The notes beneath the pieces were generated by a model. It was given only the letters and a program-made list of their open reading frames with translations. It did not search any database and had not been told where the DNA came from. DNA of 64,000 bases from Nonlabens marinus S1-08 (GTDB lineage: Bacteria; Bacteroidota; Bacteroidia; Flavobacteriales; Flavobacteriaceae). Made by a program: the position numbers and the translations under genes. Within the stretch, counting starts at the first letter, position 1. Every line of letters starts with the position of its first letter. Of the stretch, positions 1,968 through 63,917 are shown one piece after another. The stretch covers positions 930,001-994,000 of the forward strand of contig NZ_AP014548.1 in NCBI RefSeq assembly GCF_000831385.1, in the 5' to 3' direction.

Positions 1968-1987
1968 TTCGCTTTCGCGAAAGCGAA
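1968..1987. repeat. Dispersed palindrome, full 20 bp copy
   Basis: Perfect self-complementary TTCGCTTTCGCGAAAGCGAA between the esterase-like gene and the 3' end of hemB. It is the first of 22 copies in the window. It could fold into an 8-bp stem with a CGCG loop. Confidence 0.95.
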
Positions 1988-2167
1988 TTAATGTTCTTGA
2001 ATATTGCTTAAAATGAGCATGGTCTCAGTCAATTGATTTTTGCACCGGTTTGCGGTTTTTTTAATACCCTGAAATTGTGTTTCAATAGCACAGGCGTGAG
2101 TATTTTGTTTTTTTAACTACTGGATTTGACGACCAACTAATTTATGGTCTAAAGAATGGAAGAAACA

Positions 2168-2189
2168 CTCTTAATCAGTTGATTAAGAG
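2168..2189 (-). terminator. Possible terminator hairpin behind hemB
   Basis: Two perfect 10-base arms (CTCTTAATCA and TGATTAAGAG) separated by two bases lie 22 bases beyond the hemB stop. The run after it on the minus strand is only weakly T-rich (TGTTTCTT), so a terminator role is uncertain. Confidence 0.35.
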
Positions 2190-2211
2190 AGCTATTGATC
2201 CAGTGGTTTCC

Positions 2212-3186
2212 CTATGAAATCAAATTCACCACATCCTTAGCAAAATAACTAGCGATTAAATTCGCCCCAGCGCGTTTGATGGCAGTGACTTGCTCCATCA
2301 TGACGGCATCGTGGTCCAGCCAGCCTTTTTCAGCGGCTGCCTTGAGCATGGCGTATTCACCACTCACTTGATAAACCGCAATTGGTAATTCGATCTCGTT
2401 ACGTAAGTCACGAACTATATCTAGGTAACATAACCCTGGTTTTACCATAAGAATATCGGCACCTTCATCAATATCCATTAAGGATTCTTTGATCGCTTCG
2501 GCACGGTTCGCAGGGTCCATCTGGTAGGTTTTCTTGTCGCCAAAACCTGGCGCGCTATCCAGCGCATCTCTAAACGGGGCATAGAAAGCACTCGCATACT
2601 TGGCACTATAGCTCATAATGCCAGTGTCGGTAAATCCGTTTTCTTCTAGAGCTTCTCTAATGTAAAGAATACGACCATCCATCATATCGCTGGGTGCAAC
2701 CATATCTGCTCCCGACTGTGCGTGGGAAACGCTCATTTGGGCAAGAACTTCGCTAGTTGCGTCATTGATGATCTTGCCATCCTCCACAATCCCATCATGA
2801 CCGTAGCTGGAATAAGGATCCAGCGCAACGTCTGTCATAACATACATATCTGGTGCGGCATCTTTTACCGTTTTAATGGCGCGTTGCATCAAACCGTCTT
2901 TATTCAAGGCTTCTGTTCCTTTGTTGTCTTTGAGGTTGTAGGGCACTTTGACAAAAAGCAATACACTTTTCAGTCCCATTTTCCAAAGTCCTTTCACTTC
3001 CACGGACAGCAAATCCAGGCTGAATCGGTAATAGTCTGGCATGCTGGCGATTTCTTCCTTAATACCATAGCCTTCTACTATAAATAGGGGCACGATAAAG
3101 TCGCTGGGCGTGATGGTCGTTTCCTGAACTAGGGAACGTATGGAAGCGTTGGTACGCAGTCGTCTATTTCTTCTCAGTGGATACAT
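2212..3186 (-). CDS. hemB: Porphobilinogen synthase (delta-aminolevulinic acid dehydratase)
   Basis: Condenses two 5-aminolevulinate molecules to porphobilinogen, the second common step of heme synthesis, in the cytoplasm. 324 residues, the usual length. The two active-site lysines are visible as K196 (SYSAKYAS) and K249 (LMVKPGLCYLD). The metal-site loop reads DVALDPYSSYGHDG, with Asp/Ala where zinc enzymes have cysteines, so this is a magnesium/potassium-type enzyme as in Pseudomonas rather than the E. coli zinc type. The start is the Met before YPLRRNRRLR, the normal family N-terminus; the upstream extension would lie inside the neighbouring gene. It overlaps the 3' end of the preceding lipoprotein gene by 23 bases, suggesting translational coupling. 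hemA and hemC are about 16 kb away. Confidence 0.97.
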   Translation of the reverse strand: MYPLRRNRRLRTNASIRSLVQETTITPSDFIVPLFIVEGYGIKEEIASMPDYYRFSLDLLSVEVKGLWKMGLKSVLLFVKVPYNLKDNKGTEALNKDGLMQRAIKTVKDAAPDMYVMTDVALDPYSSYGHDGIVEDGKIINDATSEVLAQMSVSHAQSGADMVAPSDMMDGRILYIREALEENGFTDTGIMSYSAKYASAFYAPFRDALDSAPGFGDKKTYQMDPANRAEAIKESLMDIDEGADILMVKPGLCYLDIVRDLRNEIELPIAVYQVSGEYAMLKAAAEKGWLDHDAVMMEQVTAIKRAGANLIASYFAKDVVNLIS

Positions 3187-3622
3187 AAGGCAATTCAAGT
3201 TTTGAAAGTAATTCTTGAAAAGATGCAGTAGCATCTGGTGTGGTAAGAGTTACTTTTTTAGTGTCGTTATAAATTTCAATCCGGCTATGGTTTTGACTCC
3301 GCTCAGTCATCGCTGGATTTACAGCGTCAACTTGGGGTTGAAATCTGATTTTATCTTCTGAAGCGCGGTAGCGATTCTGAACAAAGGTATTGATCAATCG
3401 AACATCATCATAGGAAAGTTCTCGCCGAACCGTTTCTGTTGGACTGAAAAATGCCATTTCGTTATTGAGAAACCCCATTCGGTATTCGCTTCCATTTTCC
3501 AGCGTAAATCGGATTTGAAAATCTTGAGTCTCAAATATGGAATTGATGTTTGCAGCACTGGGATCCAATTCCTGCTGGCAGGAGGTGGTTAGGATCAAAA
3601 TCAGGATAAGAATCTTTTTCAT
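3164..3622 (-). CDS. Small lipoprotein of unknown function upstream of hemB
   Basis: 152 residues. The N-terminus is a short hydrophobic signal (ILILILILTTSC) ending in a lipobox, with C15 as the likely lipidated cysteine, so it should be anchored in the envelope. The mature part contains alternating polar and aromatic residues and no domain I recognise. Its last 23 bases overlap the start of hemB in another frame, placing both in one transcript; a function connected with heme cannot be inferred from that alone. ATG start has no competing upstream codon. Confidence 0.75.
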   Translation of the reverse strand: MKKILILILILTTSCQQELDPSAANINSIFETQDFQIRFTLENGSEYRMGFLNNEMAFFSPTETVRRELSYDDVRLINTFVQNRYRASEDKIRFQPQVDAVNPAMTERSQNHSRIEIYNDTKKVTLTTPDATASFQELLSKLELPYVSTEKK

Positions 3623-3741
3623 AGACTTTTTTTAATGTTAGGTCGAAACCTCTATTTAAAGATGGTGCCGTTGAGGTAGCTCTCGACTACGCTAGAGTAA
3701 GCATTTTTAATCAACACATCATCAAATCAGCACATTAGTAA

Positions 3742-4604: not shown

Positions 4605-4626
4605 TTTCGCTTTCGCGAAAGCGAAA
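4605..4626. repeat. Dispersed palindrome, full copy extended to 22 bp
   Basis: The standard 20-bp palindrome with an extra matching T/A pair at the ends. It stands between the divergent SDR and moxR genes, about 160 bases before moxR. The rest of this 297-base spacer shows no gene and no clear promoter box. Confidence 0.95.
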
Positions 4627-7087: not shown

Positions 7088-8724
7088 TCAGACAACTGTC
7101 CTACATTTTAATTTTTCTAGCTGGTATGCCTGCCATAGCGCAAACGGCGAGCCGCGTTGCGACTAAGATTGATCGAGATTCCATCATGATGGGCGAGGAA
7201 ATCAAACTCCAGCTTACCGTGGAAGCCACGGCGGAGGATTTGGTGGTATTTCCAGTCCAGCAAGCTATGGGAGCCTTAGAGGTTATAGAGTTCTATCCGG
7301 TTGACACCATCAGGGAGAACGACAAGATGCGTTTGTTCAAGCAATACGGTATCACACAGTTTGATAGCGGTGATTACTACATCCCACGCTTAAAAGTTCT
7401 ATTTAATAACAAAGAGCTGTTTTCAGACAGTTTGCTCGTCAAAGTACGGGAAGTACAAACCGATACTACCGTCCAGGGAATGTATGACATCAAACCCGTC
7501 ATTGAGAACGAGTACCAAAAGCCCTTCAATTGGATGGGGCTGCTATGGTTATTGCTTTGGATTCCATTGGGAGTATTGTTTTGGTGGCTTTCGCGAAAGC
7601 GAACTTTCAAAACCTATGAGCAAACACTGCCACCCTATGAGTGGACAAAATATCGTTTGAACAAGTTGGCTGAAAGTGGACTTGCCGAAGATCGTGCTTG
7701 GAAAGCGTATTATACTGAACTCACCTACATTGTACGTCGCTATATTGATACAAAAGTGTACGGTCAAGCGCTAGAAAGCACTACAGATCAGCTGATTCAA
7801 AATATAGAAACCGAAACTGCCGCAAAAGGCGTTTCCATTACAGATAAAACTAAAGAACGCCTACAATCCCTGCTTCAAAAAGCAGATCTGATCAAATTTG
7901 CAGGAGTTATGGGTGATGGAATTTCTGCTAAAGAAGACCGTCAAACCGCGACAGATATTATTTACAACATTCATCAAGTACTGCCGCCGCCTAGTGAGGA
8001 GGAGCTGTTGCTGGACGTTAAATACCGTAAGTCGCAAGAGCGCAAGCGCAAAATCAAAAAGATCTTGATTTATATCGCTGGTGCCATTATCGGGCTAGCC
8101 ATTGCGATAGGTGCATGGGTTGCGGTGGTAGGCTGGGACAATGTAAAGGATCAACTTTTTGGGAATCAGTTGCGCGAGTATTATGAAGGCACGCAATACA
8201 CCAGTAGTTATGGAGTTCCTGAAGTTACCTTGACTACCCCAGAGATTCTAGAGCGCCGTCTAGACTTACCATTAAGCGAGGAGTTTATGAAAGCTGTTTC
8301 TAGTGTGGATGCCTTTGTGTTGAACAGCATTGATGAAGACTTATTTGTAACGGTTACTACCTTCCAGGCGAAAGGAGAAGGATTGAAAGAAGACGAGCAA
8401 TTGCCTAAAGAGGTGTTTACTGAACCTGTGTATCAAAGTTTTGAAAAGCAAGGCGCCACTAATATTTTAATGCTGGATGAACCTGCAGAGCGTAATGGCT
8501 TGAAGGGATTAAAGCTGGAAGGAAGTTTTGATTACGACGGTAACAATTTTGAATATATAGGCTATATGTTTGTCAATGGCGCTAGTGTTCAGCAAGTAAT
8601 TGTAGCGCACAAAAAAGATGAGACTGAAGATGTCGATAAGCAATACGGTAGATTGATCAGCGAGCAGATCATTGCTTCTATGCAATTCACTAAGCCACAA
8701 CCACCTAAAGACGATGCCGAATGA
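7084..8724 (+). CDS. BatD-like membrane protein of the Bat operon
   Basis: 546 residues. A signal peptide (to about AQ20) leads to a beta-rich periplasmic region (21-145), a membrane segment (150-168), a helical cytoplasmic stretch (175-300) resembling the C-terminal region of BatD-type proteins, a second membrane segment (about 327-349) and a C-terminal mixed domain. It starts by a 4-base overlap with the DUF58 gene and overlaps batA in the same way. In Bacteroidota this slot usually holds an unnamed protein; here the second membrane segment and extra C-terminal domain make it longer than a plain BatD-like protein. A palindrome copy encodes LSRK just after the first membrane segment. Confidence 0.8.
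   Translation: MIRQLSYILIFLAGMPAIAQTASRVATKIDRDSIMMGEEIKLQLTVEATAEDLVVFPVQQAMGALEVIEFYPVDTIRENDKMRLFKQYGITQFDSGDYYIPRLKVLFNNKELFSDSLLVKVREVQTDTTVQGMYDIKPVIENEYQKPFNWMGLLWLLLWIPLGVLFWWLSRKRTFKTYEQTLPPYEWTKYRLNKLAESGLAEDRAWKAYYTELTYIVRRYIDTKVYGQALESTTDQLIQNIETETAAKGVSITDKTKERLQSLLQKADLIKFAGVMGDGISAKEDRQTATDIIYNIHQVLPPPSEEELLLDVKYRKSQERKRKIKKILIYIAGAIIGLAIAIGAWVAVVGWDNVKDQLFGNQLREYYEGTQYTSSYGVPEVTLTTPEILERRLDLPLSEEFMKAVSSVDAFVLNSIDEDLFVTVTTFQAKGEGLKEDEQLPKEVFTEPVYQSFEKQGATNILMLDEPAERNGLKGLKLEGSFDYDGNNFEYIGYMFVNGASVQQVIVAHKKDETEDVDKQYGRLISEQIIASMQFTKPQPPKDDAE
7587..7600. repeat. Dispersed palindrome core, inside the BatD-like gene
   Basis: 14-bp core GCTTTCGCGAAAGC, read as L169-S-R-K172 directly after a membrane helix, where positive residues are tolerated. 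It is the only copy in this reading phase. Confidence 0.9.
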
Positions 8725-11808: not shown

Positions 11809-12637
11809 TAGAGTGCAACATATTTTAGTGATGGTCATGGTTTGTGGAGTTTTCGCTTTCGCGAAAGCGCAATCCCCACAGCCCGACAACAAAGCCTATG
11901 AATCTGCTATGGCTCAAGGATTGGACTATGCTGCAGACAGCAACTTCCCAAAAGCGGAAGCCGCTTATCGTAAGGCAAAAGCGGTGAATCCGCAGTCTGT
12001 AGAAGCACCATACAATCTTGGGAATTTATATTACGAGAATAAAAAAGGCTACAATGCGATAGAAAACTATACCGCAGCCGCTACAAAAAGCACCTCCAAG
12101 GCAGAGAAACACAAAGCGTTCCATAATCTAGGCAACACTTTTATGGAAGCTAAGCAGTTTTCGCAAGCGGTAGAAGCTTATAAAAACGCCCTGCGCAACG
12201 ACCCTACAGACGATGAAACTCGTTACAACCTAGCACTTGCCAAGCAAGAAAAAGAAAAGCAAGGCGGTGGCGGCGGTGGCGATGATAAGCCTGATAAAGG
12301 AGACAATAAAGACGAGAATAAGAATAAAGATGGTGATCAAGACGAGAAGTCGGGTGGCGATAATAAAGGGGAGAACGAGAAAGAAGGCAAGGATAAAGAA
12401 GGCGATAAGGGCGATGACAAGAACGATCCTAAAGGAGAAAACCAAGAAGGAAAAGATGGAGACGGCAAACCTAATGAGCAAAAAGATCAACAACAAAAAA
12501 GGGTAGAAGGACAAATGACACCGCAACAAATACGTCAAATTCTGGAAGCCATGAACAATGAGGAGCAGAAGATTCAAGATAAAATCAATGCTCAAAAAGT
12601 AAAAGGACGTAAAAAAACAACTGAAAAAGACTGGTAA
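11801..12637 (+). CDS. batC: BatC, TPR protein with charged low-complexity tail
   Basis: 278 residues. Signal peptide (about 1-24), then tetratricopeptide repeats (about 30-155) for protein-protein contacts in the periplasm, then a long Lys/Asp/Gly/Glu-rich region (about 155-235) and a helical end with MTPQQIRQILEAMNNEE. The low-complexity tail is typical of flavobacterial BatC. A palindrome copy encodes FAFAKA (18-23), the end of the signal peptide, and the result still gives an acceptable AKA-Q cleavage site. Confidence 0.93.
   Translation: MNNRVQHILVMVMVCGVFAFAKAQSPQPDNKAYESAMAQGLDYAADSNFPKAEAAYRKAKAVNPQSVEAPYNLGNLYYENKKGYNAIENYTAAATKSTSKAEKHKAFHNLGNTFMEAKQFSQAVEAYKNALRNDPTDDETRYNLALAKQEKEKQGGGGGGDDKPDKGDNKDENKNKDGDQDEKSGGDNKGENEKEGKDKEGDKGDDKNDPKGENQEGKDGDGKPNEQKDQQQKRVEGQMTPQQIRQILEAMNNEEQKIQDKINAQKVKGRKKTTEKDW
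11852..11869. repeat. Dispersed palindrome in batC signal peptide
   Basis: Left arm complete, right arm stops at GCG. Read in the AFAKA phase across the hydrophobic end and cleavage site of the signal peptide. Confidence 0.92.
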
Positions 12638-14389: not shown

Positions 14390-15148
14390 ATGAAACTCTG
14401 GATATGTACTGCCTTCTTTTCAATGGTTGCGTTTGCTATAGCGCAGAATGACGCTGGGTATTCCGCTTTCGCGAAAGCGAATACTGCTTACACAAACGGC
14501 GATTATCAAGAAGCTATTAATTCTTACAACAGTATTTTGCAATCCGGCCTACAAAGTGCTGAGGTGTATTTTAACCTAGGGAATGCGTATTACAAGCAAA
14601 ATGAAGTAGGACCAGCCATTTTCAATTATGAAAAGGCACTGCAGCTGGATCCTGGGAATAAAGAGGTTAAAAATAATTTGAGATTTGCACAACAGTTGCG
14701 GATAGATGCCATACAACCACTAGCTGAAAACCCTATAGAAAAGTTCTTAAAAGATACCGCAACATCTACAACAGTAGATAACTGGGCATACATAAGTATT
14801 ATACTGGCGCTTATTGCGGTTTTAATGTTTTTGCTATATCATTATGCAAAGACTACGGGAAAAAAGAGATTGTTCTTTACACTATCACTAATTCTGTTCT
14901 TACTAGTGGTGCTGTCAATTGTTGCGGCATCCTATGCTCATAATTTGAATAATAGCAGTAATCAAGCTATTGTCTTTAGTCAAGAAACAGTTACTCGAGC
15001 AGAACCTAAGTCCAATGCAGACCCTAGTTTTGCGGTTCATGAAGGCACAAAGGTGTCCATTCTAGAAGAGTATCAAAACTGGGCTCACATTCAGTTAGCA
15101 AACGGATCTGAAGCCTGGATGCCACTTGCTGATTTGAAAAAACTTTAA
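14390..15148 (+). CDS. batE: BatE, TPR and SH3-domain membrane protein
   Basis: 252 residues. Signal peptide (about 1-18), two to three TPR units (about 25-100, SAEVYFNLGNAYYKQNE typical), two membrane helices (about 134-152 and 159-181) and a C-terminal bacterial SH3-like domain (about 196-252, VTRAEPKSNADPSFAVHEG). It is the last gene of the bat operon. A palindrome copy encodes AFAKA at 26-30, at the beginning of the first TPR. Confidence 0.93.
   Translation: MKLWICTAFFSMVAFAIAQNDAGYSAFAKANTAYTNGDYQEAINSYNSILQSGLQSAEVYFNLGNAYYKQNEVGPAIFNYEKALQLDPGNKEVKNNLRFAQQLRIDAIQPLAENPIEKFLKDTATSTTVDNWAYISIILALIAVLMFLLYHYAKTTGKKRLFFTLSLILFLLVVLSIVAASYAHNLNNSSNQAIVFSQETVTRAEPKSNADPSFAVHEGTKVSILEEYQNWAHIQLANGSEAWMPLADLKKL
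14465..14478. repeat. Dispersed palindrome core in batE
   Basis: Core GCTTTCGCGAAAGC with right arm continuing to GAA. AFAKA phase, about 25 codons after the start. Confidence 0.9.
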
Positions 15149-19430: not shown

Positions 19431-20375
19431 CTATTTCAAACTTTCTTTAATGCTAGCCATAAGCTTCAACCCATCGTTGTCTAATATGTGTTCCGCTTTC
19501 GCGAAAGCGAACTCCTCTAACGCTTTCCATTCTAGGCTTTCACAGACACCAGTAGTCTGTATGCGCTGTTTGCCATCAAGTGATAACAGGCACCCTTGAA
19601 AATGCAAACGTCCTTGACGTATGCTGGCGTGAGCACCTATGGGAGCCGTACAGCCGCCTTCTAAGCGTCGCAGGAATAATCGTTCTACATCTACACACTT
19701 TTGTGTGCTTAAATGATTGAGCTGGCTTACAGCATCCACCACGGTGGTATTCTGCTCCATGGCTGCGATCATCATGGCGCCTTGTGCTGGTGCAGGTACA
19801 AAACTGTCCAGATGTGAATACTCAAGACCGTAAGAACCTCGTAGATTTTTGAGAATATTAATGCGTTCCAGTCCTGCTTTGGCAAAAATAGCCGCATTCC
19901 AATCCTCATTATTTTGAAGCTTTGCGAGTCTCGTGTTCACGTTGCCTCGCAAGTCCACCACATTGTGTAATGGATACATATTCAGCCACTGCGATTTGCG
20001 GCGTAAACTACCAGTCGCAATGGTCATTTGATCGTCTGGATTGAAACTGGATTTATAAACCAGTATATCCCGATGGTCTGCTCGTTCCATCACGGCTGCC
20101 TGGATCATACCTTTTGGCAACTGGGTAGGAACATCCTTTAAACTGTGGACGGCAATATCAATCTCATCTTTCACCAGTGCCACGTCCAGTGTTTTAGTGA
20201 AAATACCAGTGATTCCCATTTCATACAACGGCTCGTCTAGATTCAGGTCGCCTTGAGATTTGACGGGTACGAGTAAGGTTTGATGGCCTAAGGCTTCTAG
20301 CGCATTTTGAACCGTGCGTGCTTGCCACATAGCCAGTTCACTGTCCCGGGTTCCAATGCGTATTTGTTTAGTCAT
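19431..20375 (-). CDS. hemC: Hydroxymethylbilane synthase (porphobilinogen deaminase)
   Basis: Polymerises four porphobilinogens to hydroxymethylbilane in heme synthesis. 314 residues. Landmarks: RIGTRDSELAMWQA at the N-terminus, catalytic D81 in HSLKDVPT, the arginines of GSLRRKSQW, and C242 in LEGGCTAPIGAHA, which carries the dipyrromethane cofactor. It overlaps the end of hemA by 8 bases, so the two are translated from one message. A palindrome copy encodes AFAKAE (290-295) in a C-terminal helix. Confidence 0.97.
   Translation of the reverse strand: MTKQIRIGTRDSELAMWQARTVQNALEALGHQTLLVPVKSQGDLNLDEPLYEMGITGIFTKTLDVALVKDEIDIAVHSLKDVPTQLPKGMIQAAVMERADHRDILVYKSSFNPDDQMTIATGSLRRKSQWLNMYPLHNVVDLRGNVNTRLAKLQNNEDWNAAIFAKAGLERINILKNLRGSYGLEYSHLDSFVPAPAQGAMMIAAMEQNTTVVDAVSQLNHLSTQKCVDVERLFLRRLEGGCTAPIGAHASIRQGRLHFQGCLLSLDGKQRIQTTGVCESLEWKALEEFAFAKAEHILDNDGLKLMASIKESLK
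19495..19508. repeat. Dispersed palindrome core in hemC
   Basis: Core with one full arm. Read on the minus strand in the AFAKA phase, in a variable C-terminal helix of HemC. Confidence 0.9.
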
Positions 20376-21772: not shown

Positions 21773-21792
21773 TTCGCTTTCGCGAAAGCGAA
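21773..21792. repeat. Dispersed palindrome, full copy between hemA and the AraC gene
   Basis: Full 20 bp, extended by a matching G/C pair on each side, 31 bases before the AraC-family start codon. Its position in a divergent promoter region makes regulator binding conceivable, but the same sequence occurs at many non-promoter sites. Confidence 0.95.
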
Positions 21793-24765: not shown

Positions 24766-25681
24766 AAATATCTCTTGCTACCCGGTAAGTATTGGCATGA
24801 GCATCGATGATATGTCGTATGTCTGGCGAGTAACCGCCTCCCATACTGCATTGTACTGGTATGAAAGATTTTGAGGTGTGTTTCGCTTTCGCGAAAGCGG
24901 AAAAACTATACGCATCTCGCTGCTTACATCCTTCCAGGGTCATTCCTAACCTGCCTAATTTATCGCTAGAGAGCACATCAACGCCAGCTAAATAAAATAT
25001 AAAATCTGGTTTTTCTTGCGCAATCAGGTCTGGAAGATGCTGTTTTAATTCATCCAAAAATGTGGCATCATCTGTCCCATCAGGTAACGCAATATCTAAA
25101 TCAGACTTCTCTTTTTTAAAGGGGTAGTTTCCGGCTCCGTGCATGGAAAATGTGAAAACGCTGTCGTCATTTTGAAAGATTTCAGCGGTACCATTTCCTT
25201 GATGCACGTCTAGATCTACAATCAAAATCTTCTCTGCATGATTATGATGTTGCAAGTATCGAGACGCAATGGCTTGATCATTTAACAAGCAAAAGGCTTC
25301 TCCATGATCTGTATAAGCGTGGTGTGTCCCACCAGCAATATTCATTGCCACTTTATGCTGCATGGCTTTTAGGCAACCTTCAATGGTGCCTTGAGCGATG
25401 CGCAATTCTCTTTCTACCAGCTGTCCACTTAATGGAAAGCCTAGTTTACGTGCGGCCCGTTTGTCTAGCGTCAAGTTTTTCAAGCTTTCCAGATACTCGC
25501 CGTTATGAACTCGCAACACGTCTTCATCACTACACAATTTGCTAGGTTCAAAAAAATCTGCTTGTCGTGCAATTCCTTCATGTAGCAACTGTTGTGGCAA
25601 CAATTCGTATTTAATCATAGGGAATCGATGGCCTTCTGGCAAAGGGTGTTTGTAAATAGGATGGAAGGCAATGGGGAACAT
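24758..25681 (-). CDS. Histone-deacetylase-family (AcuC-like) hydrolase
   Basis: 307 residues, zinc-dependent arginase/deacetylase fold. Active-site residues visible: the His pair in AGGTHHAY (120-121), the zinc ligands D156 and H160 in DLDVHQGNGT, D235 in LAGVDVL, and the GGGYS loop (281-285). Bacterial members remove acetyl groups from polyamines, acetoin-pathway proteins or unknown small molecules; the substrate here is unknown. A palindrome copy encodes AFAKAK (262-267) in a surface helix. It overlaps the 3' end of the convergent membrane-protein gene by 8 bases. Confidence 0.92.
   Translation of the reverse strand: MFPIAFHPIYKHPLPEGHRFPMIKYELLPQQLLHEGIARQADFFEPSKLCSDEDVLRVHNGEYLESLKNLTLDKRAARKLGFPLSGQLVERELRIAQGTIEGCLKAMQHKVAMNIAGGTHHAYTDHGEAFCLLNDQAIASRYLQHHNHAEKILIVDLDVHQGNGTAEIFQNDDSVFTFSMHGAGNYPFKKEKSDLDIALPDGTDDATFLDELKQHLPDLIAQEKPDFIFYLAGVDVLSSDKLGRLGMTLEGCKQRDAYSFSAFAKAKHTSKSFIPVQCSMGGGYSPDIRHIIDAHANTYRVARDIFN
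24882..24899. repeat. Dispersed palindrome in the deacetylase gene
   Basis: Palindrome with one complete arm. AFAKA phase on the minus strand. Confidence 0.92.
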
Positions 25682-39402: not shown

Positions 39403-39422
39403 TTCGCTTTCGCGAAAGCGAA
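39403..39422. repeat. Dispersed palindrome, full copy between sufA and sufB
   Basis: Full 20 bp, 16 bases beyond the sufA stop. Together with the copy between sufD and sufC, it marks two of the looser joints of the suf series. Confidence 0.95.
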
Positions 39423-41294: not shown

Positions 41295-42047
41295 TTATTC
41301 GATTAAATGCATTTTATCTAGAATTTCATTGGGATGAGTGATGATACTCATGTGACCGGAATGGATCTGAAAGCTATTAGTTTTCAACAACTTTAACTCT
41401 ATCTGCACTAAGTCTGACGGAATGATCTCATCTGCATTACAATATATATAGGTGATTGGAAAATGTGATTGTCTCAATTCATCCAAATAATCATCTCGAT
41501 CGCGCATGGCCATGAGCGCATAAATAATGGAAGCATTAGAAATTTTTTGCGCTTGAGATTTTATGAGATCAATTTTAGCTTCAAATAGTTCCTTTTCAGC
41601 GGGCGTGAATAAGTTGCTGACTGCCATGCTGATGAATGCCTTAGGATATTTAGAAACTAGTTGGATAGAACGATCTCGTTGAGACTTACGCAAATCAGTA
41701 TCTGCTGCTGCGCAACTATTGATGAGGTGGAGAGACAAGAGTTGTTGAGGGTACGCTTTCGCGAAAGCGCAACCCACATAACCACCCATGCTGTGTCCTA
41801 CAAAGTGAACTCGCGCGATATTAAGATCTTGAAGTATTTGATGAATGGCACTCGCCACGTCGCTGAGGTTGTATGGATTTGGATCAGGGCTCTTTCCATG
41901 ACCTGGAAGCTCAATAAGTAACAACTGGTGCTTGCCTTTTAAATCATTCACGATGGGTTGCCACTGCTGTGCGCTACCTAAAAAACCGTGAAGGAGTAGC
42001 ACGGTGGCACCCGGTCCTTCCATTAGTGTATTTGAAAGTTCAAGCAT
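41295..42047 (-). CDS. Alpha/beta hydrolase
   Basis: 250 residues. Oxyanion-loop LLLHGFLGS (17-25), nucleophile S86 in VGHSMGG, a likely acid in YCNADEIIPSD and the catalytic His in HSGHMSIITHP. Esterase, MenH-like or similar; the substrate is unknown. The start is MLELSNTLMEG; an upstream extension of 61 codons looks non-coding and crosses a TATCTTTG box at 42064-42071. A palindrome copy encodes AFAKAY (94-99) just after the nucleophile elbow. Confidence 0.88.
   Translation of the reverse strand: MLELSNTLMEGPGATVLLLHGFLGSAQQWQPIVNDLKGKHQLLLIELPGHGKSPDPNPYNLSDVASAIHQILQDLNIARVHFVGHSMGGYVGCAFAKAYPQQLLSLHLINSCAAADTDLRKSQRDRSIQLVSKYPKAFISMAVSNLFTPAEKELFEAKIDLIKSQAQKISNASIIYALMAMRDRDDYLDELRQSHFPITYIYCNADEIIPSDLVQIELKLLKTNSFQIHSGHMSIITHPNEILDKMHLIE
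41755..41768. repeat. Dispersed palindrome core in alpha/beta hydrolase
   Basis: Core with CG on both sides, AFAKA phase. It lies in the helix behind the catalytic serine, where Ala-rich sequence is normal for the fold. Confidence 0.9.
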
Positions 42048-43261: not shown

Positions 43262-43281
43262 TTCGCTTTCGCGAAAGCGAA
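43262..43281. repeat. Dispersed palindrome, full copy next to a terminator
   Basis: Full 20 bp starting two bases after the terminator tail. The site already has an efficient hairpin, which argues against termination as the palindrome's purpose. Confidence 0.95.
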
Positions 43282-47706: not shown

Positions 47707-48837
47707 ATGTTTAAATACATGATTGTCAGTGTGTTTTTCTATTTCGCTTTCGCGAAAGCGAGCCACGCACAAACTACAGAGGTGAAACAGTATAAGGTTC
47801 AGACAGTTGCCTTTTACAATCTTGAAAACTTATTTGATACCGAAGACGATACGAGCATCAACGATGAAGCCAGTCCGATGTTGGAAATGGACGCTGGAAT
47901 CCGTGAGGAAGTTTATGAAAAGAAGCTTTCAAATATGGCTCGGGTCATTCGTAAAATAGGAGCCGATAAAGCTCAAACCGCACCCACGATTTTAGGGGTG
48001 TGTGAGGTAGAAAACCGAAAAGTGTTGGAAGACCTTGTTAGCCACCCATTATTAAGAGAGTTTGATTACGGCATTGAGCATTTCAACTCTCCAGACCGTC
48101 GTGGCATTGATACAGGATTTCTGTATAAGAAAAAAGAGTTTAAAGTGTTGAACAGTGTTTCTAAGGAATTATTGATTTACGACTTAGAAGACGGTGATCG
48201 TGTGTATACCCGCGATCCTATAGTCGTTACAGGAGAGCTCAATGGCGACAAAATGACTTTTATTGTAAACCACTGGCCATCGCGCAGTGGTGGGGAGCAG
48301 AAAAGTAGAAGCAAGCGTAATGCAGCTGCCCAGTTGAATAAGTCCATTATCGATAGCTTGCACAGCATCGATGCGATGTCTAAGATTTTTGTAATGGGAG
48401 ATTTAAACGATGACCCTACAAATGAAAGTGTTAAAACGATATTGAATGCCCAGCTGGACAGAGAGACGGTGAAGCCTCAAATGATTTACAATCCTTATAT
48501 GCAAATGTTGAAGGATGGTTACAATACCCTATTGTATAGGGATTCTGGAAATATTTTTGACCAGATCATGTTCACTTACCCAATGCTAGCGGAAGCAAAT
48601 CAACCAGGTTATATATATTGGCAGGCTCACATTTACAATCCTAGTTTTTTGACAAATAAAACAGGATCTTACAAAGGGTATCCGTACCGCAGTTTTTTAG
48701 GCAACACATTTACTGGTGGTTACAGCGACCATTTTCCTGTATATGTATATTTAGTGAGAGAAATTACATCTGACGAAACGATGAACGCGGCTTTGAAAGA
48801 TGCCAAGCAATCCGTCAAAGAATTAAAGAAGAATTAA
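47707..48837 (+). CDS. Secreted endonuclease/exonuclease/phosphatase family protein (2)
   Basis: 376 residues, paralogue of the protein at 42232. Signal peptide about 1-22 (FAFAKASHAQ), then EEP motifs FYNLENLFDTEDD, GVCEVENRKVL, NHWPSRSGG, MGDLNDDPTN and GGYSDHFPVY. Divergent from the TonB receptor gene. Secretion plus nuclease fold suggests breakdown of extracellular nucleic acid or phosphate esters. Part of the signal peptide (residues 13-18) is encoded by a palindrome copy. Confidence 0.9.
   Translation: MFKYMIVSVFFYFAFAKASHAQTTEVKQYKVQTVAFYNLENLFDTEDDTSINDEASPMLEMDAGIREEVYEKKLSNMARVIRKIGADKAQTAPTILGVCEVENRKVLEDLVSHPLLREFDYGIEHFNSPDRRGIDTGFLYKKKEFKVLNSVSKELLIYDLEDGDRVYTRDPIVVTGELNGDKMTFIVNHWPSRSGGEQKSRSKRNAAAQLNKSIIDSLHSIDAMSKIFVMGDLNDDPTNESVKTILNAQLDRETVKPQMIYNPYMQMLKDGYNTLLYRDSGNIFDQIMFTYPMLAEANQPGYIYWQAHIYNPSFLTNKTGSYKGYPYRSFLGNTFTGGYSDHFPVYVYLVREITSDETMNAALKDAKQSVKELKKN
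47743..47760. repeat. Dispersed palindrome forming a signal peptide
   Basis: 18-bp perfect copy, read FAFAKA inside the signal peptide of the secreted nuclease, just before the cleavage region. Second such case after batC. Confidence 0.93.
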
Positions 48838-50163: not shown

Positions 50164-50557
50164 TACTTGTTTTAGGGAATTTATTAAAAATACAATATAA
50201 ACCGCAGTTGTAAAATGAAAGCCCATGTGGCTTTGTGCTTGTGGGAAAGTTCGCTTTCGCGAAAGCGAAATACCCACCTCTTAAAATCTTTTAACAGACG
50301 AATTATTAAACCAGATCACCTATCAATTGTACCTGTATTATGATGACGACTCTGGGGGGCAAAACATCAAGGGACCGCCATAGGAGTTTTCAAAGACATT
50401 CTTACAAAGAACCTGAACCCTCGACAGCACCAGCACCTTTAACCCTAAGAGGTAAAAAAGTAAGGAATATTACTTCAACTGTAGGCACTAGGATCTTATA
50501 GCTACAGCATAAAAACTTCTACCAGAACAGGGTGTAAACTTTTTATTGTACCTAAAG
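50164..50557. other. Intergenic stretch, possible decayed coding sequence
   Basis: 394 bases containing one palindrome copy. From about 50320 to 50460 the plus strand can be read as short protein-like pieces (QLYLYYDDDSGGQNIKGPP, then TLDSTSTFNPKR after a stop and shift). This could be a relic of a gene, but is too short to identify. No RNA gene is recognisable. Confidence 0.3.
50250..50269. repeat. Dispersed palindrome, full copy
   Basis: Full 20 bp, upstream of the LD-carboxypeptidase start. Confidence 0.95.
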
Positions 50558-51849: not shown

Positions 51850-51863
51850 GCTTTCGCGAAAGC
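51850..51863. repeat. Dispersed palindrome core, arms degraded
   Basis: 14-bp core with AC and TT flanks instead of full arms, although intergenic. The remaining part of this 344-base spacer (51832-52175) shows no gene or recognisable element. Confidence 0.9.
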
Positions 51864-53403: not shown

Positions 53404-53768
53404 TGCTTAAGCGGGTGGTCATTTTTAATTCCATAGCTCTTTTATCTGTAAGCGATATTAAACAACCTCTATCTTAAATATGTTAAAGGCACAAATTGAC
53501 ATCTATCTACTATCAGTGCAAATTTTATCAATTATACGCCCTTACTTTTTAATACCACAATAAACATTTTGGCTTCAATGCGACCTACGCCTTGTATACC
53601 AAAAGCAATCGTTAATACCTTTTACTTGTTATGTTGTGGGATAGTTTTTTCGCTTTCCTGTCTGCCGACAGGCAGGCGCGAAAGCGAACTAACGATAACC
53701 ATAACTGCTTTCATGAGCACATCAAAGCTGCTACAGTTATTGTAAATTTGTGGCTTTGATACGATTTC
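53404..53768. other. Intergenic, AT-rich, no gene seen
   Basis: Only the interrupted palindrome (53649-53688) is recognisable in this spacer before metG. Confidence 0.6.
53649..53688. repeat. Dispersed palindrome interrupted by a second palindrome
   Basis: TTCGCTTTC and GCGAAAGCGAA are the standard halves, but 20 bases, CTGTCTGCCGACAGGCAGGC, stand between them (53658-53677). The insert is itself an imperfect palindrome (CCTGTCTGCC / GACAGGCAGG) of a type that I recall as an intergenic repeat in flavobacteria. No host bases are lost. Confidence 0.9.
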
Positions 53769-55856
53769 ATGAGCAATCAACAACGATTTACGATTACCGC
53801 GGCATTGCCGTATACTAACGGACCGGTTCACATAGGTCACCTAGCAGGCGTTTACGTACCGGCAGATATTTATGCGCGTTACCAGCGATTAAAAGGTGCA
53901 GACGTTGCCTTTATTTGCGGGAGCGATGAGCATGGGGTGCCTATTACGCTTAAGGCCAAAAAAGAAGGCGTCTCACCACAGGAAATCGTGGATCGTTACC
54001 ATAAGATCATTGGAGATTCTTTTGAAGAATTTGGTATCTCGTTTGATAATTACAGCCGCACTAGTGCGCCTATTCATCATGAAACAGCAAGTAAATTCTT
54101 TACTAAATTATACGATGATGGCAAGTTTATCGAGCAAGTCACAGAACAACTCTATGATGCTGAGGCTAATCAGTTTCTAGCCGACCGTTTTGTCGTGGGA
54201 ACTTGTCCGAAATGCGGCAATCCAGAATCCTACGGCGATCAATGCGAGCGCTGTGGAACTTCTCACAACGCAACCGATTTGATCGAGCCCAAAAGCGCCA
54301 TCACTGGCAACGTTCCAGAATTGCGCGAGACCAAACACTGGTTCCTGCCACTGGACCAATATAGTGACTGGCTCAATGAGTGGATTGTGGAAGGCCATGC
54401 GGCTGATTGGAAAACTAACGTATTGGGCCAAGTAAAAGGTTGGGTGACCGACGGTCTCAAGCCACGCGCGGTAACCCGTGATCTGGATTGGGGAATTCCA
54501 GTTCCTGTAGAAGGTGCTGATGGCAAGGTGTTGTACGTTTGGTTTGATGCGCCTATAGGCTATATATCAGCTACTAAAGAATGGGCAGCAGATAATGACA
54601 AGAATTGGGAAGATTACTGGAAGGATAAAGACACAAAACTGCTTCATTTTATAGGCAAGGATAACATTGTTTTTCACTGCATCATTTTCCCAGCGATGTT
54701 GAAGGCGCACGGTGAATTTATTTTGCCAGACAACGTTCCAGCAAACGAGTTTTTAAACTTGGAAGACGACAAGATCTCGACCTCTAGAAATTGGGCGGTT
54801 TGGTTGCATGAATATTTACAGGACTTTCCTAATCAACAGGATGTGTTGCGATATGTATTGACTGCAAACGCTCCAGAAACTAAGGATAATAACTTTACCT
54901 GGAAGGATTTCCAGGCGCGTAACAATAATGAATTGGTGGCCGTGCTGGGGAACTTTATCAATCGCGCCCTGGTATTGACGCATAAATATTACGATGGAGT
55001 AGTGCCGCAGCCTGGCGAGTTTACGGCGGTCGATCAAGAAACGCTTGATGCCGTTAATGCATTTCCCAAAAGCATAGAAGATAGTCTGGAACGATATCGC
55101 TTTCGCGAAAGCGCAAACGAGTTCATGAATCTCGCACGACTAGGAAACAAATACCTAGCCGATGAAGAACCTTGGAAACTCATCAAAACCGATCCAGAAC
55201 GTGTCAAAACCATCATGTTTATTGGTCTACAAATTGCAGGAGCACTAGCCGTTCTTGCAGAACCATTCCTACCGCATACGGCTACGAAATTACAGGACAT
55301 GCTCAACATCGCGTCAAATCCTGCAGCGAGACTGCGTACAGATCTAGTCAAGATCGAATGGAACGACATTGCTGAGAAACAAGAACTATTGCACCACGGC
55401 TACAAAATCAATACAGCCGAATTGCTATTCTCAAAAATCGAGGACGAACAAATAGAAGCGCAGCTGCAAAAATTGGAAGCAACCAAAGCTGCCAACAAAT
55501 CCACAACACCTAATCTTATGCCACAGAAAGAAGAAACTAACTACGATGATTTCATGAAAATGGACCTGCGCGTTGCAGAAATCCTAACCGCAGAAAAATT
55601 GCCGAAGTCCAACAAATTGATGGTCATGACCGTAGATACGGGCATCGACAAAAGAACCATTGTTTCAGGAATAGCAAAGCACTACAGTGCAGAAGAATTA
55701 GTAGGCAGAAAAGTAACCGTTCTGGCGAACCTCGCACCCAGAAAATTGATGGGCGTAGAATCTCAAGGAATGATTTTATTAGCTGAAGATCCTGAAGGGA
55801 AACTGGTTTTTGTAAATCCGGATGATGCAATCGTGAATGGGGCGACCATAGCATAA
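53769..55856 (+). CDS. metG: Methionyl-tRNA synthetase
   Basis: 695 residues. Class I signatures HIGH (21-24) and KISTS (335-339, variant of KMSKS), a zinc knuckle with C146, C149, C159 and C162, and a C-terminal tRNA-binding domain (about 590-695, [11 protein letters not shown]). A palindrome copy encodes RFRES at 444-448 in the anticodon-binding domain; a similar YRFRE sequence may be ancestral in the family. A decayed second copy of the last codons lies 600 bases downstream, suggesting DNA exchange at the 3' end. Confidence 0.97.
55099..55112. repeat. Dispersed palindrome core in metG
   Basis: Core in the RFRES phase. It may have arisen by point changes from a naturally similar codon series rather than by insertion. 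Confidence 0.9.
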
Positions 55857-59343: not shown

Positions 59344-59357
59344 GCTTTCGCGAAAGC
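59344..59357. repeat. Dispersed palindrome, one arm shortened
   Basis: Core with complete right arm and CC at the left, upstream of the TPP riboswitch. Confidence 0.9.
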
Positions 59358-59627: not shown

Positions 59628-61817
59628 ATGAAACATTTTTCTGTCGCTGTACTAGCCGTTGCATTAACACTATCGAGCACGGTATCAGCACAAAACAAAC
59701 AACCACAAGACACCACCAAAACAGAACAACTGGGTGAAGTACTTGTAAAAGCCGTAAGGGTAGATGCTAAATCACCCATTACCCACAGCAATGTGTCCAA
59801 GGAAGAACTTGCCAAACGTAACCTGGGGCAAGACATTCCTATGTTGCTCAATTTTTTACCATCTGTAGTGACTACCAGTGATGCTGGTGCAGGAATTGGC
59901 TATACAGGCCTGAGGGTGCGCGGTGTAAGTTCGCAGTCTACTAATGTCACCATCAACGGTATTCCTTATTCTGACGCAGAATCCCTAGGAACCTTTTGGG
60001 TGAACCTGGGTGACTTTGCATCCTCCGTCGAGAGTTTGCAATTGCAACGTGGTGTGGGAACCAGTGTGAATGGTAGTGGCGCCTTTGGCGCGAGTATCAA
60101 TATATTGACTGATGTGGTCAATGAGGATGCCAGCGGAGAAATCTCCAATTCATTTGGAAGTTTCAATAGCCGAAAACACACGGTCAAATTCTCCACAGGA
60201 CTGATGAACGATCATTTTGAAATTGCAGGGCGCCTGTCTAATATTGCCTCTGACGGTTACATTGATCGCGCCTCAACTGATTTAAAATCCTACTTTTTAC
60301 AAGGATCCTATGTGGATGATAATACGTTGATCAAGGCCGTCACTTTTGGCGGTAGCGAGGTCACTTATCAGTCTTGGTTTGGTATAGATAAAGAAACCTT
60401 AGAAAACGACCGCACCTTCAATCCTGCTGGTCAATATGAAGATGAGAATGGTGTTACCAGATTTTATGACAATGAAGTGGATGATTATAAACAGGATCAC
60501 TATCAGTTGCACTGGAATCAGCGATATGATGGGAATTGGTCTACTAACATTGGTTTGAATTATACCTATGGACGTGGCTTCTTTGAACAGTATAGAGAAG
60601 ATGATGATTTTGACACCTACGGTTTTAACCCATTAGTAGTGAATGGTCAGCTCGTAAACTCTACTGACTTAGTGCGTCGCAGGTGGTTGGACAATGATTA
60701 TTATGTAATCAATGCAAATGCCAATTATAAGACTAATGAACTCGACCTGATTTTTGGAACATCGTATAGTCATTATGATGGAGACCATTTTGGCGAAGTG
60801 ATCTGGGCACGATTTGCCAGCCAGAGCAATATTAGAGATCGCTATTATGATGGAAATGGGAAGAAAGATGATTTTTCCGCTTTCGCGAAAGCTACTTTCA
60901 AACTTAATGATAGGGTGCAATTATATGGCGATCTTCAAGTGAGGAATGTGGATTATAGTACTTCAGGAATTAATTCTGATCTTTCGAATTTTGTGGTGGA
61001 CGAGAATTTTACCTTCTTCAATCCTAAAGCAGGTATCACCTATGAATTGAATGAGATAAACGACTTGTATTTCTCATATGCTAGAGCAAATCGCGAACCT
61101 AACAGGAACGATTTTGAAAGCGACCCAAACATCAATCCAGAACAATTGAATGATTTTGAATTGGGATGGAGACATAAGAAAGGTAATTTCAGCTTTAATG
61201 CAAACAGTTACTTGATGCTCTACGACGAGCAGCTGGTACTGAGTGGTGAGATCAATGATGTAGGAGCACCCTTAAGAACCAATAGTGGGCAAAGTTACCG
61301 CCTTGGTTTAGAGCTGGAAGCAGTAATCCCTGTAACGCCTCAACTCACCTTACAACCTAATCTTGCGTTGAGCAGCAATAAGAATACGGAAACTATCCGT
61401 TCATTTGATGGCGAGATCCAAAATCTGGGAAGTACGGAGATTGCGTTCTCGCCTAGTGTGGTAGGAGCAAATGCTATCGTTTTCCAGCCGGTAAAGAATT
61501 TTCAAGTTTCGTTGCTTAGTAAATTTGTTGGTGAGCAATTCATGAGCAATACGGAGGCGCCAGCTTCAAAATTGGATAGTTATTTCACTAACGACATCAA
61601 CTTGATTTATACCATAGAACCCAAGTCTATTTTTGAAACCATCACTTTTACTGGTCTAGTCAATAATATTTTTGATGAAAAGTATGTGTCTAATGGATAC
61701 TATTTCACATTTGATGATGATTTTAGTAATCCGGGAATTGTAAATACGGTGGAAGGCGCTGGTTTTTACCCACAGGCAGGAATTAATTTCTTAGCAGGAA
61801 TGACACTTAGTTTTTAG
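59628..61817 (+). CDS. TonB-dependent receptor, thiamine-regulated
   Basis: 729 residues. Signal peptide about 1-21 (TVSAQ), plug domain (about 45-160, VRGVSSQSTNVTINGIPYSDAESLG and NGSGAFGASINI), and a beta-barrel ending GINFLAGMTLSF. The TPP riboswitch upstream points to uptake of thiamine or a precursor. A palindrome copy encodes AFAKA (418-422) in a barrel strand. No transporter for the inner membrane is adjacent. The downstream hairpin ends the transcript. Confidence 0.92.
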   Translation: MKHFSVAVLAVALTLSSTVSAQNKQPQDTTKTEQLGEVLVKAVRVDAKSPITHSNVSKEELAKRNLGQDIPMLLNFLPSVVTTSDAGAGIGYTGLRVRGVSSQSTNVTINGIPYSDAESLGTFWVNLGDFASSVESLQLQRGVGTSVNGSGAFGASINILTDVVNEDASGEISNSFGSFNSRKHTVKFSTGLMNDHFEIAGRLSNIASDGYIDRASTDLKSYFLQGSYVDDNTLIKAVTFGGSEVTYQSWFGIDKETLENDRTFNPAGQYEDENGVTRFYDNEVDDYKQDHYQLHWNQRYDGNWSTNIGLNYTYGRGFFEQYREDDDFDTYGFNPLVVNGQLVNSTDLVRRRWLDNDYYVINANANYKTNELDLIFGTSYSHYDGDHFGEVIWARFASQSNIRDRYYDGNGKKDDFSAFAKATFKLNDRVQLYGDLQVRNVDYSTSGINSDLSNFVVDENFTFFNPKAGITYELNEINDLYFSYARANREPNRNDFESDPNINPEQLNDFELGWRHKKGNFSFNANSYLMLYDEQLVLSGEINDVGAPLRTNSGQSYRLGLELEAVIPVTPQLTLQPNLALSSNKNTETIRSFDGEIQNLGSTEIAFSPSVVGANAIVFQPVKNFQVSLLSKFVGEQFMSNTEAPASKLDSYFTNDINLIYTIEPKSIFETITFTGLVNNIFDEKYVSNGYYFTFDDDFSNPGIVNTVEGAGFYPQAGINFLAGMTLSF
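60879..60892. repeat. Dispersed palindrome core in thiamine receptor gene
   Basis: 14-bp core, AFAKA phase, inside a beta-barrel strand segment (SAFAKATFKLN). Confidence 0.9.
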
Positions 61818-62401: not shown

Positions 62402-62415
62402 GATTAATGAGTTTT

Positions 62416-63036
62416 TTATTTCATTTTTAAAAGCAAAGATTCAGCTGCTTTAAAAAATGTATTAACGTCAGTTTTTTGATTCAAAGTTTTTTCACTTTTT
62501 ATAATGTCGGCGAGATTTTGCTCTACTGCTGACAGTTCATTAGTAAGATTCGGGAACTTTTCTTTTTGCAATGTGGAAAGTGCACGAGTGATAATACCAC
62601 CAGATTGTTTTATCAAATCTGCATGATTCACTTTATATGGATTTTCCATGATTTGTTTAGCACTCTCTCTAGCCTCTCTAAGATCAGCTGTAACTTCCAC
62701 ATCATGAACATCTGCTTTTGCTTGTACGGCATCAATGAGTAATAGTAGAGCCCCATTACTATATTCATGGTCAATGCTCATTTGGCCAGTATCACCTATA
62801 TAAGTAGAGTAGTTTTCCAATGCAGTTTCAAATTGGGAAATTGCTGCAGTATTTAGGTCATCACTTTGATCATCCATCCCATCACCTTCCATGACTTGTT
62901 CTGTTAGAACTTCATCGTCCATATCGTCTTCGTCATTTGCATATACAAAAAAGTAAATAATTGCTGCTAGGACTAGGATCGCTAGAAGTATCCAGGGCCA
63001 AACTGGTTTTTTCTTTTCAATTTTAATTTCTGCCAT
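62416..63036 (-). CDS. Membrane-anchored helical protein
   Basis: 206 residues. Short basic N-terminus, one membrane helix (about 13-32, WPWILLAILVLAAIIYFFVY), acidic linker rich in D and M, then helices (about 70-206) with regular heptad-like spacing. No family recognised. Its partnership with the PRC-barrel gene suggests an envelope stress pair. The ATG is preceded by A-rich sequence. Confidence 0.7.
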   Translation of the reverse strand: MAEIKIEKKKPVWPWILLAILVLAAIIYFFVYANDEDDMDDEVLTEQVMEGDGMDDQSDDLNTAAISQFETALENYSTYIGDTGQMSIDHEYSNGALLLLIDAVQAKADVHDVEVTADLREARESAKQIMENPYKVNHADLIKQSGGIITRALSTLQKEKFPNLTNELSAVEQNLADIIKSEKTLNQKTDVNTFFKAAESLLLKMK

Positions 63037-63338
63037 GATAATTCAGTTTTTAAGGTTAATAGTTGTGTTTAAGCTTTACTTGTCAATAAGTGAGTAGGTA
63101 ATTTAAGTAGGAATCTACTTTATTTATGGAGTTTAGCATTACAAAATTATTATAAAATTCAAATAAATGGTTGGTATACAAGGGTCTAAGGATACCCCCT
63201 GTTTTCAATAGCTATATAAAAAGCAGATTGCCCAATTATCAATGAAGATTCACCTCTATTATTCAAACCAATGAAATATCAGTTCATTTAACGAGTATAC
63301 TTTTGGAACAATTCAAACGAAGACTTAAGCATGAGATG
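63037..63338. other. AT-rich intergenic stretch
   Basis: 302 bases with no credible gene. A small hairpin AAGTAG-GAAT-CTACTT (63105-63120) lies about 70 bases before the membrane-anchored gene; nothing else is recognised. Confidence 0.5.
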
Positions 63339-63767
63339 CTAGTTAGACACAACGATAGTGCTCCCGCTACGATTGACTCGATAGGCTTTCATGCCATATT
63401 CTCCACTACCAGATTTAGGCTGGCCGAAGGTGATATCATAAGAATTTGAATCCTCTGGACAGGGACAAGTGGCAGTAAGGCCGCTTACTGTCATAGTGCT
63501 GCATGAATTAGGAGCATGATTGGGATCACTCAACTCAAAAGCGCTGTACTGATTATTACCCAGACTGTAAATTACAAAACCACGTATGCCTTGATTTCTA
63601 ACAATCACGCTATTTCCAGCAAAATTAAGGCTAGAATATTGTGGCAAATCAGTGTTCAAACTGGCTTGAAATGAGATGTCAATCAGGAAAGGATTGCCAC
63701 GGCGCCCGTCATCACTTTCACAAGAGAGCATTACTAGGGCAGCGAATAGAAACAAAATCTTTTTCAT
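63339..63767 (-). CDS. Small lipoprotein, Rieske-like without clear ligands
   Basis: 142 residues. Lipobox VMLSC (C16). Sequence such as GNSVIVRNQGIRGFVIYSLG, DPNHAPNSCSTM, TCPCPEDSNSYDI and GMKAYRVNRSGS follows the order of strands in Rieske-like domains, but the standard CxH and CxxH pairs are not clear, so a cluster is doubtful. Divergent from greA. Confidence 0.7.
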   Translation of the reverse strand: MKKILFLFAALVMLSCESDDGRRGNPFLIDISFQASLNTDLPQYSSLNFAGNSVIVRNQGIRGFVIYSLGNNQYSAFELSDPNHAPNSCSTMTVSGLTATCPCPEDSNSYDITFGQPKSGSGEYGMKAYRVNRSGSTIVVSN

Positions 63768-63815
63768 GGGAGTTCTCTAAGAGGTTAAAAGTATAACGAT
63801 ACTATTCATATTTCG

Positions 63816-63823
63816 TATATTTG
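63816..63823 (+). promoter_or_regulatory. Putative -7 box of greA
   Basis: TATATTTG fits TAnnTTTG. The leader would be about 130 bases and would include a palindrome copy. No -33 TTG at the usual distance. Confidence 0.4.
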
Positions 63824-63899
63824 CCCTATAAATCCCGCAGCAATGATGGGATTTTGTGTTTTGTAGAGACCTGTGTGTTTTACGGGTTGTGTTAATGAG

Positions 63900-63917
63900 T
63901 TCGCTTTCGCGAAAGCG
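63900..63917. repeat. Dispersed palindrome, right arm altered, upstream of greA
   Basis: Left arm TTCGC intact, right arm GCGTAA. 34 bases before the greA ATG. Confidence 0.92.

Follow-up and report, generated by a model that had tools for sequence, protein, structure and literature searches.

The 14-mer GCTTTCGCGAAAGC, a perfect palindrome, is present in 21 exact copies in a 64,000-nucleotide stretch of the genome of Nonlabens marinus S1-08 (contig NZ_AP014548.1, positions 930,001 to 994,000; this whole stretch is termed the window). It constitutes the core of a two-fold symmetric unit of about 75 bp. Very probably a putative DNA-binding protein, two-fold symmetric and specific to the clade, recognises the motif, which is maintained via this reader across the whole chromosome and not for single genes. 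Two-fold symmetry together with the strict core suggests a dimeric DNA-binding protein; confidence stops slightly short of the highest grade, since neither recognition of the double strand nor that of a hairpin is clearly favoured by where mismatches fall in the core. The motif is new and of the kind of genome-wide iterated, maintained signals. It belongs neither to the DNA uptake sequences (DUS) and uptake signal sequences (USS), because its core is symmetric and theirs is non-palindromic, nor to HIP1. Evenly spaced and strictly kept signals of genome-wide extent are few to our knowledge, namely DUS, USS, HIP1, Chi and the FtsK orienting polar sequences (KOPS), each of which opened a field. 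The 14-mer is absent from the open-licence PubMed Central literature searched, which likewise contains nothing relevant on palindromes for Nonlabens, Dokdonia or Flavobacteria.

Abundance and phylogenetic range

In the window, 0.18 matches to GCTTTCGCGAAAGC are expected from 100 shuffles, and a tolerance of up to two mismatches adds no place to the 21 exact copies. The 20-mer preferred in N. marinus S1-08, TTCGCTTTCGCGAAAGCGAA, is exact at 8 of the 21 sites, the remaining 13 possessing one to three mismatches in the outer six bases. The sequence-only reading of the window had reported a 20-bp perfect palindrome 22 times; this number is recovered as 21 exact 14-mers plus one split copy (53649), but the exact 20-mer occurs only eight times. 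The sites it had located exist, although its positions mix 20-mer and 14-mer starts (4605 is to be read as 4606), and its 20-bp element overlooks arms of about 30 bp that belong to the whole site. In scans of the window, neither Rfam (gathering) nor a tRNA search gave a match, and one 2.8-kb window gene had none among plasmid records. Ten of the window's ORFs were scanned as proteins, the genes recognised including hemA, sufD, sufB and metG.

The genome of N. marinus S1-08 (2,915,920 bp, one contig) contains 728 copies of GCTTTCGCGAAAGC and none of the reversed 14-mer. With up to two mismatches 857 places are found (129 beyond the exact copies), versus 18 for the reversed control. Both outcomes that the sequence-only reading had named as refutations are contradicted: the genome-wide count is far above expectation, and the motif is not restricted to the window, all 23 Nonlabens genomes carrying it in 288-857 copies. 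In the Dokdonia-like genus to which G227 (857 copies) belongs, 18 of 18 genomes possess 369-905 copies, and G211, the sole genome of a third genus, has 408, about half the density. A sample of the family (397 Flavobacteriaceae genomes, 237 genera) includes four Nonlabens, G211 and G227, and only these six are motif-rich, all others having 0-19 copies. In a phylum sample without G211 and G227, the remaining 394 genomes contain 0-2 copies of the 16-mer. Among 80 named hflX loci kept, the motif is present at two (Nonlabens tegetincola and an uncultured Dokdonia), with three copies each in 21 kb. Of these 80 loci, that of N. tegetincola is nearest to the window's hflX (83%), and G018, of the same genus as the window, has an hflX equal to that of this strain. 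In the hflX tree of 104 rows, a single-gene tree made with a quick method, a single branch separates the 24 motif-bearing rows from all the others (Shimodaira-Hasegawa-like approximate likelihood ratio test, SH-aLRT, 93). According to these sequences the motif-rich genera probably form one clade of Flavobacteriaceae, a small clade in which the motif has one apparent evolutionary origin.

A symmetric variant core, GCTTTTGCAAAAGC, occurs in 15 copies in G227 and in 0-5 copies in 20 other genomes; it is possibly the start of a second dialect. In the three low-count genomes whose islands were opened (G108, G357 and G236), motif copies lie within metal-resistance islands (L255-L259), where they recur every few kb in otherwise motif-poor genera. 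Island proteins scanned comprise heavy-metal efflux pumps and P-type ATPases, besides a multicopper oxidase in G108 and G236. On the simplest reading of their sequences, the islands would be DNA exported from the motif clade. A motif pair 933 bp apart recurs across five genera of the family samples. The motif is a simple sequence tag for DNA long resident in the clade, and for islands probably derived from it.

Site anatomy

The anatomy of the site was examined on 119 copies in 464 kb of the window's genome, with simple longest-ORF calls (open reading frames, ORFs) of at least 80 aa. ORFs contain 69 of these copies (0.17 per kb) and intergenic regions 50 (0.95 per kb). Ala-Phe-Ala-Lys-Ala is the reading frame of 41 of the 69 coding copies.

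On the right of the core, positions 4 to 19 contain about 3-13% G (689 arms pooled from four genomes); C is likewise depleted on the left, and composition is back to background about 30-35 bp out. Each strand is hence rich in G and T ahead of the core and rich in A and C behind it. The bias is present both in coding copies, turned to gene sense, and in intergenic copies; G000, G004 and G227 show it strongly, G211 weakly. Since biased arms of about 30 bp adjoin the core on both sides, the unit is about 75 bp and two-fold symmetric, not 20 bp. We know of no precedent for such a strand-specific constraint on composition. The arms are not complementary to each other beyond chance: at positions 5-15, three of the four genomes score lower than the shuffled mean for mirrored complementarity, and G211 scores slightly higher. 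A cruciform or an inverted repeat of greater length was rejected on this ground. So was clear helical phasing, the A maxima at arm positions 3, 7, 10 and 13 looking three-periodic.

Spacing and location

The first 100 sites of the genome are spaced with a coefficient of variation (CV) of 0.61, versus a random mean of 0.99 and none of 20,000 simulations as low; in the window the CV is 0.33. Four gaps are shorter than 1 kb versus 23 expected, and gaps of 10-16 kb occur. Spacing is more even than random for the first 100 listed sites in G792 and in G211 as well. Adding the one-mismatch places does not make the spacing more even (CV 0.63 to 0.65). Seven of eight one-mismatch places fall in above-mean gaps, a weak figure because long gaps would also catch chance places.

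Two large site-free gaps were examined: a ribosomal-protein operon lies in one, and the genes in the second include restriction-modification genes of HsdM and HsdS type. The densest cluster met, 10 sites in 20 kb, lies in trp/his biosynthesis and contains no candidate reader gene. Convergent gene ends make up 10 of 46 junctions at sites versus 34 of 212 in the comparison; a promoter or terminator role was rejected, there being no strong bias of junction type.

One motif copy lies exactly 74 bp before the start of the Pfam Competence domain of comEC in G792, G793 and G211; this site, inside or at comEC, is kept across two genera.

Conservation and decay

Over 48 site-pairs the core is identical at 649 of 672 positions (96.6%), arms and flanks at 74-78% (86% in their first three bases). 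The corresponding figures for DUS, in an excerpt of PMC2397512, are 97% versus a background of 85%. Look-ups covered the window and one trp/his stretch, and only sites with 15 mapped bases on each side were counted. Among the relatives, 43 of 52 look-ups are exact, four have one mismatch, one has four mismatches and four differ in length; looking up sites the other way round gave 46 exact cases out of 48, one with seven mismatches and one of different length. The avoided base appears in 70 of 523 arm substitutions versus 460 of 1931 at a distance of 60-150 bp, and is therefore held back by a constraint on arm composition that acts at present. Arm composition is conserved, arm sequence not.

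Individual coding copies illustrate their origin. At site 31699 the motif is common to three genera, and other Flavobacteriaceae possess different codons without a gap. At site 19495 the motif-free G002 is ungapped, one distant row being gapped. Both copies arose by substitution. At site 24885 all 10 aligned rows bear the motif, so that no origin can be inferred there. Insertion of a repetitive extragenic palindrome (REP) or miniature inverted-repeat transposable element (MITE) was rejected on the ungapped codon replacement at the two coding sites and because few look-ups differ in length (4 of 52 and 1 of 48).

One-mismatch copies number 10 per 119 exact copies in G000, 6 per 81 in G004, 16 per 96 in G227 and 20 per 49 in G211, where the motif system looks to be in decay. 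Of these 52 copies, at folded positions, 23 are altered at position 5, 15 at position 1 and six in the central four bases. In the genome-wide scan, three of eight listed one-mismatch copies are CpG transitions in the core centre, and all four one-mismatch orthologues are altered at core positions 6 or 9; the centre is therefore also lost through ordinary mutation. With data so mixed (6/52, 3/8 and 4/4), a hairpin loop as the strictest part of the site was not used as support. Templated correction of the palindrome was rejected as well: of the four genomes sampled, G227 has 3 symmetric double-mutant copies and the others have 0. With one apparent origin, motif-free close relatives and the weakened G211, this small clade lends itself to studying how such a signal is gained, spreads and decays, and a comparison of a few dozen genomes would serve to look for the reader gene.

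Possible function

The motif looks like a candidate landing site for a protein that handles the chromosome or tells own from foreign DNA. Uptake sequences, HIP1 and nucleoid or segregation sites, proposed for comparison by the sequence-only reading, proved the right shortlist for a motif that is genome-wide, clade-wide, even and position-conserved. Tentatively, we place first the reading that the reader serves own-DNA recognition in uptake or recombination. The dynamics of the site (core-bound, position-stable, even, missing from at least one newcomer island) match those of uptake sequences; palindrome, strictness and phage sites favour a chromosomal function. Site-bearing DNA would be preferentially taken up or recombined back, sites would then accumulate to about one per useful fragment (3-4 kb), and they would persist in core genes and in phages long resident in the clade, newcomers being without them. 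Strands may, speculatively, be separated during use of the site, as suggested by an arm bias that runs along the arm on one strand and not at few fixed positions. Still a little more tentative is the full formulation, a Bacteroidota self-DNA signal in the form of a two-fold, 75-bp site with single strands C-poor before and G-poor after the core, which serves uptake or recombination and which integrating phages of the clade have taken over. If true, uptake-type signals would extend beyond Pasteurellaceae and Neisseriaceae, and to a palindromic form.

The motif shares with the DUS of Neisseriaceae and the USS of Pasteurellaceae a number of hundreds of copies, clade specificity, even spacing and conserved positions in the core genome. 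On depletion in acquired DNA the observations point both ways: one restriction-modification island is without sites and copy number does not significantly follow genome size, yet phage contigs carry sites. As in USS, the full length of which is given as 31 bp in an excerpt of PMC7811141, the site is longer than its core. Unlike both, it is stricter, forms a two-fold symmetric palindromic site about 75 bp long whose arms are strand-biased, and occurs on phage contigs.

Several observations speak against uptake or recombination. DUS and USS, the known uptake sequences, are not palindromes as presented in an excerpt of PMC1939737. According to a part of PMC2397512, DUS lie in faster-evolving neighbourhoods, unlike the motif sites, whose neighbourhoods are not faster-evolving (76.4% versus 76.0% identity, 8% versus 13% unaligned); the same part puts the ratio of exact to one-mismatch DUS at about 2.4, so that G000 (119/10) is several-fold stricter. 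No reader protein was found in comparisons of ParB-family genes and comEC over 18 genomes. comEC does not separate the motif clade from others, and no other competence gene was sought; it was rejected as a discriminating marker, being present in 18 of 18 genomes with and without motif. Among 12 chosen multi-site IMG/VR contigs, nine possess one site per 4-8 kb, and integrase or transposase genes are found in four of the 12 site-bearing phage contigs. Sites lie within head-protease, portal-like and terminase ORFs, and within a primase ORF on an integrase-bearing contig. Such sites in phage contigs fit a chromosomal function at least as well.

In nine of the 12 contigs the G content of the 3' arm is at most 0.09; the contigs are not independent because at least three of them are one phage type by ORF sizes. 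PHROG matches were obtained for 9 of 10, 2 of 10 and 10 of 10 proteins in three sets (30 proteins scanned), and families on the contigs include portal, head, tape-measure, terminase, tail-sheath and primase. Among the matches listed, 29 of 140 fetched IMG/VR pieces pass a filter of GC and arms; most single-site pieces are probably chance. The related Nonlabens phages P12024S and P12024L, which we take to be lytic, lack an annotated integrase, carry their own ERF and YqaJ-type recombination genes, and are devoid of both the site and TCGCGA over 35.7 kb each, where composition predicts about 3.7 TCGCGA. One tailed-phage type with a GC of 0.45-0.47 (L128, L357 = IMGVR_UViG_3300040781_000495, and L110) possesses the core at host density with weaker arm bias. 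Its weak arms resemble those of G211 (GC 0.455), and it perhaps infects a G211-like host.

Ranked second, as a close rival of uptake or recombination, is a chromosome-organising site, which we consider possible though rather unlikely. Here a nucleoid, segregation or condensin-loading protein, by a logic like that of Noc or MatP, would anchor the chromosome every 3-4 kb, and integrating phages would adapt. Sites of Noc, ParB, MatP and SlmA are palindromic and scattered over the chromosome as well; they number tens per genome, whereas there are hundreds here, and their half-site spacing (parS and the Noc-binding sites) differs. A palindromic, strict and even site with few gaps below 1 kb would suit an organiser, as would sites on contigs of integrating phages and none in the two phages without annotated integrase, and 75 bp corresponds to seven helical turns that could wrap a protein. 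Copy number, on the other hand, is not significantly tied to genome size in the two genera (r = 0.34 in 13 and r = 0.23 in 20 genomes, all at least 90% complete), gaps of 10-16 kb are tolerated, and G211 does with about half the density. The arms are without clear helical phasing, and a strand bias over the whole arm is odd for double-strand wrapping. A ParB-family paralogue as reader was rejected: each of 18 genomes has 1-3 matches, without excess in the motif clade.

A bidirectional Chi-like recombination hotspot is improbable; here the palindrome would switch a repair helicase-nuclease, and RecA would be loaded 5' of the core, on the strand rich in G and T. We know of no Chi precedent for a strict 14-bp core with 30-bp arms; known Chi sites are asymmetric and short, unlike the symmetric motif, and the motif is limited to one clade, while such enzymes are widespread. 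It is in keeping with this rival that each strand is G/T-rich 5' of the core, as in E. coli Chi (GCTGGTGG), that the two site-free phages bring recombination genes of their own, and that one site per 4 kb is near the density of E. coli Chi (1008 copies in 4.64 Mb, from an excerpt of PMC1939737).

Slightly less probable still is a reading after the manner of HIP1, in which methylation and mismatch repair, with TCGCGA at the centre, would use the motif as a tool or leave it as a by-product. HIP1 of cyanobacteria (GCGATCGC) is likewise palindromic and iterated genome-wide across a clade, its function being unsettled; a part of PMC4390886 describes it as 8 bp long, with orphan methylases on internal sequences, and the spacing of the motif fits the argument made there of one site per repair tract. 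The motif differs in sequence and host family (Flavobacteriaceae), in its core of 14-20 bp (much longer than a methylase site), in long arms that methylation leaves unexplained, in lower density and in having no linked methylase. A link to methylation or cleavage through TCGCGA, raised in the sequence-only reading, gains from the central CpG transitions in three of eight listed one-mismatch copies, but has no direct support: outside the motif TCGCGA numbers 40 versus 56 expected from base composition (392 kb), and C>T at position 6 accounts for 0/10, 1/6, 1/20 and 3/16 of the one-mismatch copies in the four sampled genomes, at most 5 of 52.

An ordinary terminator hairpin, a REP- or MITE-type mobile repeat or an assembly artefact is very improbable: palindromy, the intergenic excess (50 of 119 copies, 0.95 versus 0.17 per kb) and four of four orthologues altered at the would-be loop bases are outweighed by 69 of 119 copies in ORFs, convergent ends little preferred, ungapped replacement of codons at 31699 and 19495 in nearly all rows, chance-level complementarity of the arms, loop-equivalent positions in 6 of 52 one-mismatch copies (less than an even share) and the presence in 41 genomes of two genera. 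An intrinsic terminator was rejected also on the number of symmetric copies with two mismatches, which is 0 in three of four samples and 3 in the fourth.

Sites in the window and interrupted copies

Coordinates of the motif copies in the window (positions of the whole stretch; each numbered site is the exact 14-mer)
Feature	Position	Context
Site 1	1971..1984	exact 20-mer at 1968-1987; intergenic
Example full site	1941..2014	14-mer plus about 30 bp on either side; 5' arm C-poor, 3' arm G-poor; arm extent from pooled sites, not this copy
Site 2	4609..4622	exact 20-mer; between divergent ORFs
Site 3	7587..7600	within ORF 7084-8724(+)
Site 4	11855..11868	close to start of ORF 11801-12637(+); common to G021
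Site 5	14465..14478	within ORF 14390-15148(+)
Site 6	19495..19508	within ORF 19431-20375(-); Ala-Phe-Ala-Lys-Ala; in four relatives; other codons without gap in G002
Site 7	21776..21789	intergenic, upstream of hemA; one mismatch in G014 copy
Site 8	24885..24898	within ORF 24758-25681(-); common to 10 Nonlabens genomes
Site 9	29275..29288	between convergent ORFs
Site 10	31699..31712	within ORF 31336-31851(-); codons identical in Nonlabens, G227 and G211 (three genera); one mismatch in G014
Site 11	35735..35748	intergenic, upstream of sufD; common to six genomes; missing with small length differences in G001 and G008
Site 12	39406..39419	intergenic, upstream of sufB; common to G007 and a Dokdonia contig
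Site 13	41755..41768	within ORF 41295-42230(-)
Site 14	43265..43278	between convergent ORFs
Site 15	47746..47759	close to start of ORF 47707-48837(+); one mismatch in G003 copy
Site 16	50253..50266	close to start of ORF 49261-50277(-)
Site 17	51850..51863	intergenic
Interrupted copy	53649..53688	TTCGCTTTC, 20-nt palindromic insert (53658-53677), then GCGAAAGCGAA
Site 18	55099..55112	within metG (53769-55856, methionine--tRNA ligase)
Site 19	59344..59357	intergenic
Site 20	60879..60892	within ORF 59628-61817; weak TonB-dependent-receptor matches, below curated cut-offs
Site 21	63903..63916	outside every listed ORF of at least 150 aa

The insert of the interrupted copy belongs to a GC-rich short palindrome (variants of CCTGCCTGCCGGCAGGCAGG) that splits the core at one breakpoint, between GCTTTC and GCGAAAGC, in three genera. 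Besides the window, such inserts are located at L337:17717, L279:4982 (G227) and L301:7204 (G211), and the right half is slightly altered in one interrupted G211 copy. The palindrome is also present elsewhere in Flavobacteriaceae, and the insert looks like a small mobile palindrome aimed at palindrome centres. It occurs twice in G211 (L286:9157 and 9265), in what looks like a tRNA sequence context.

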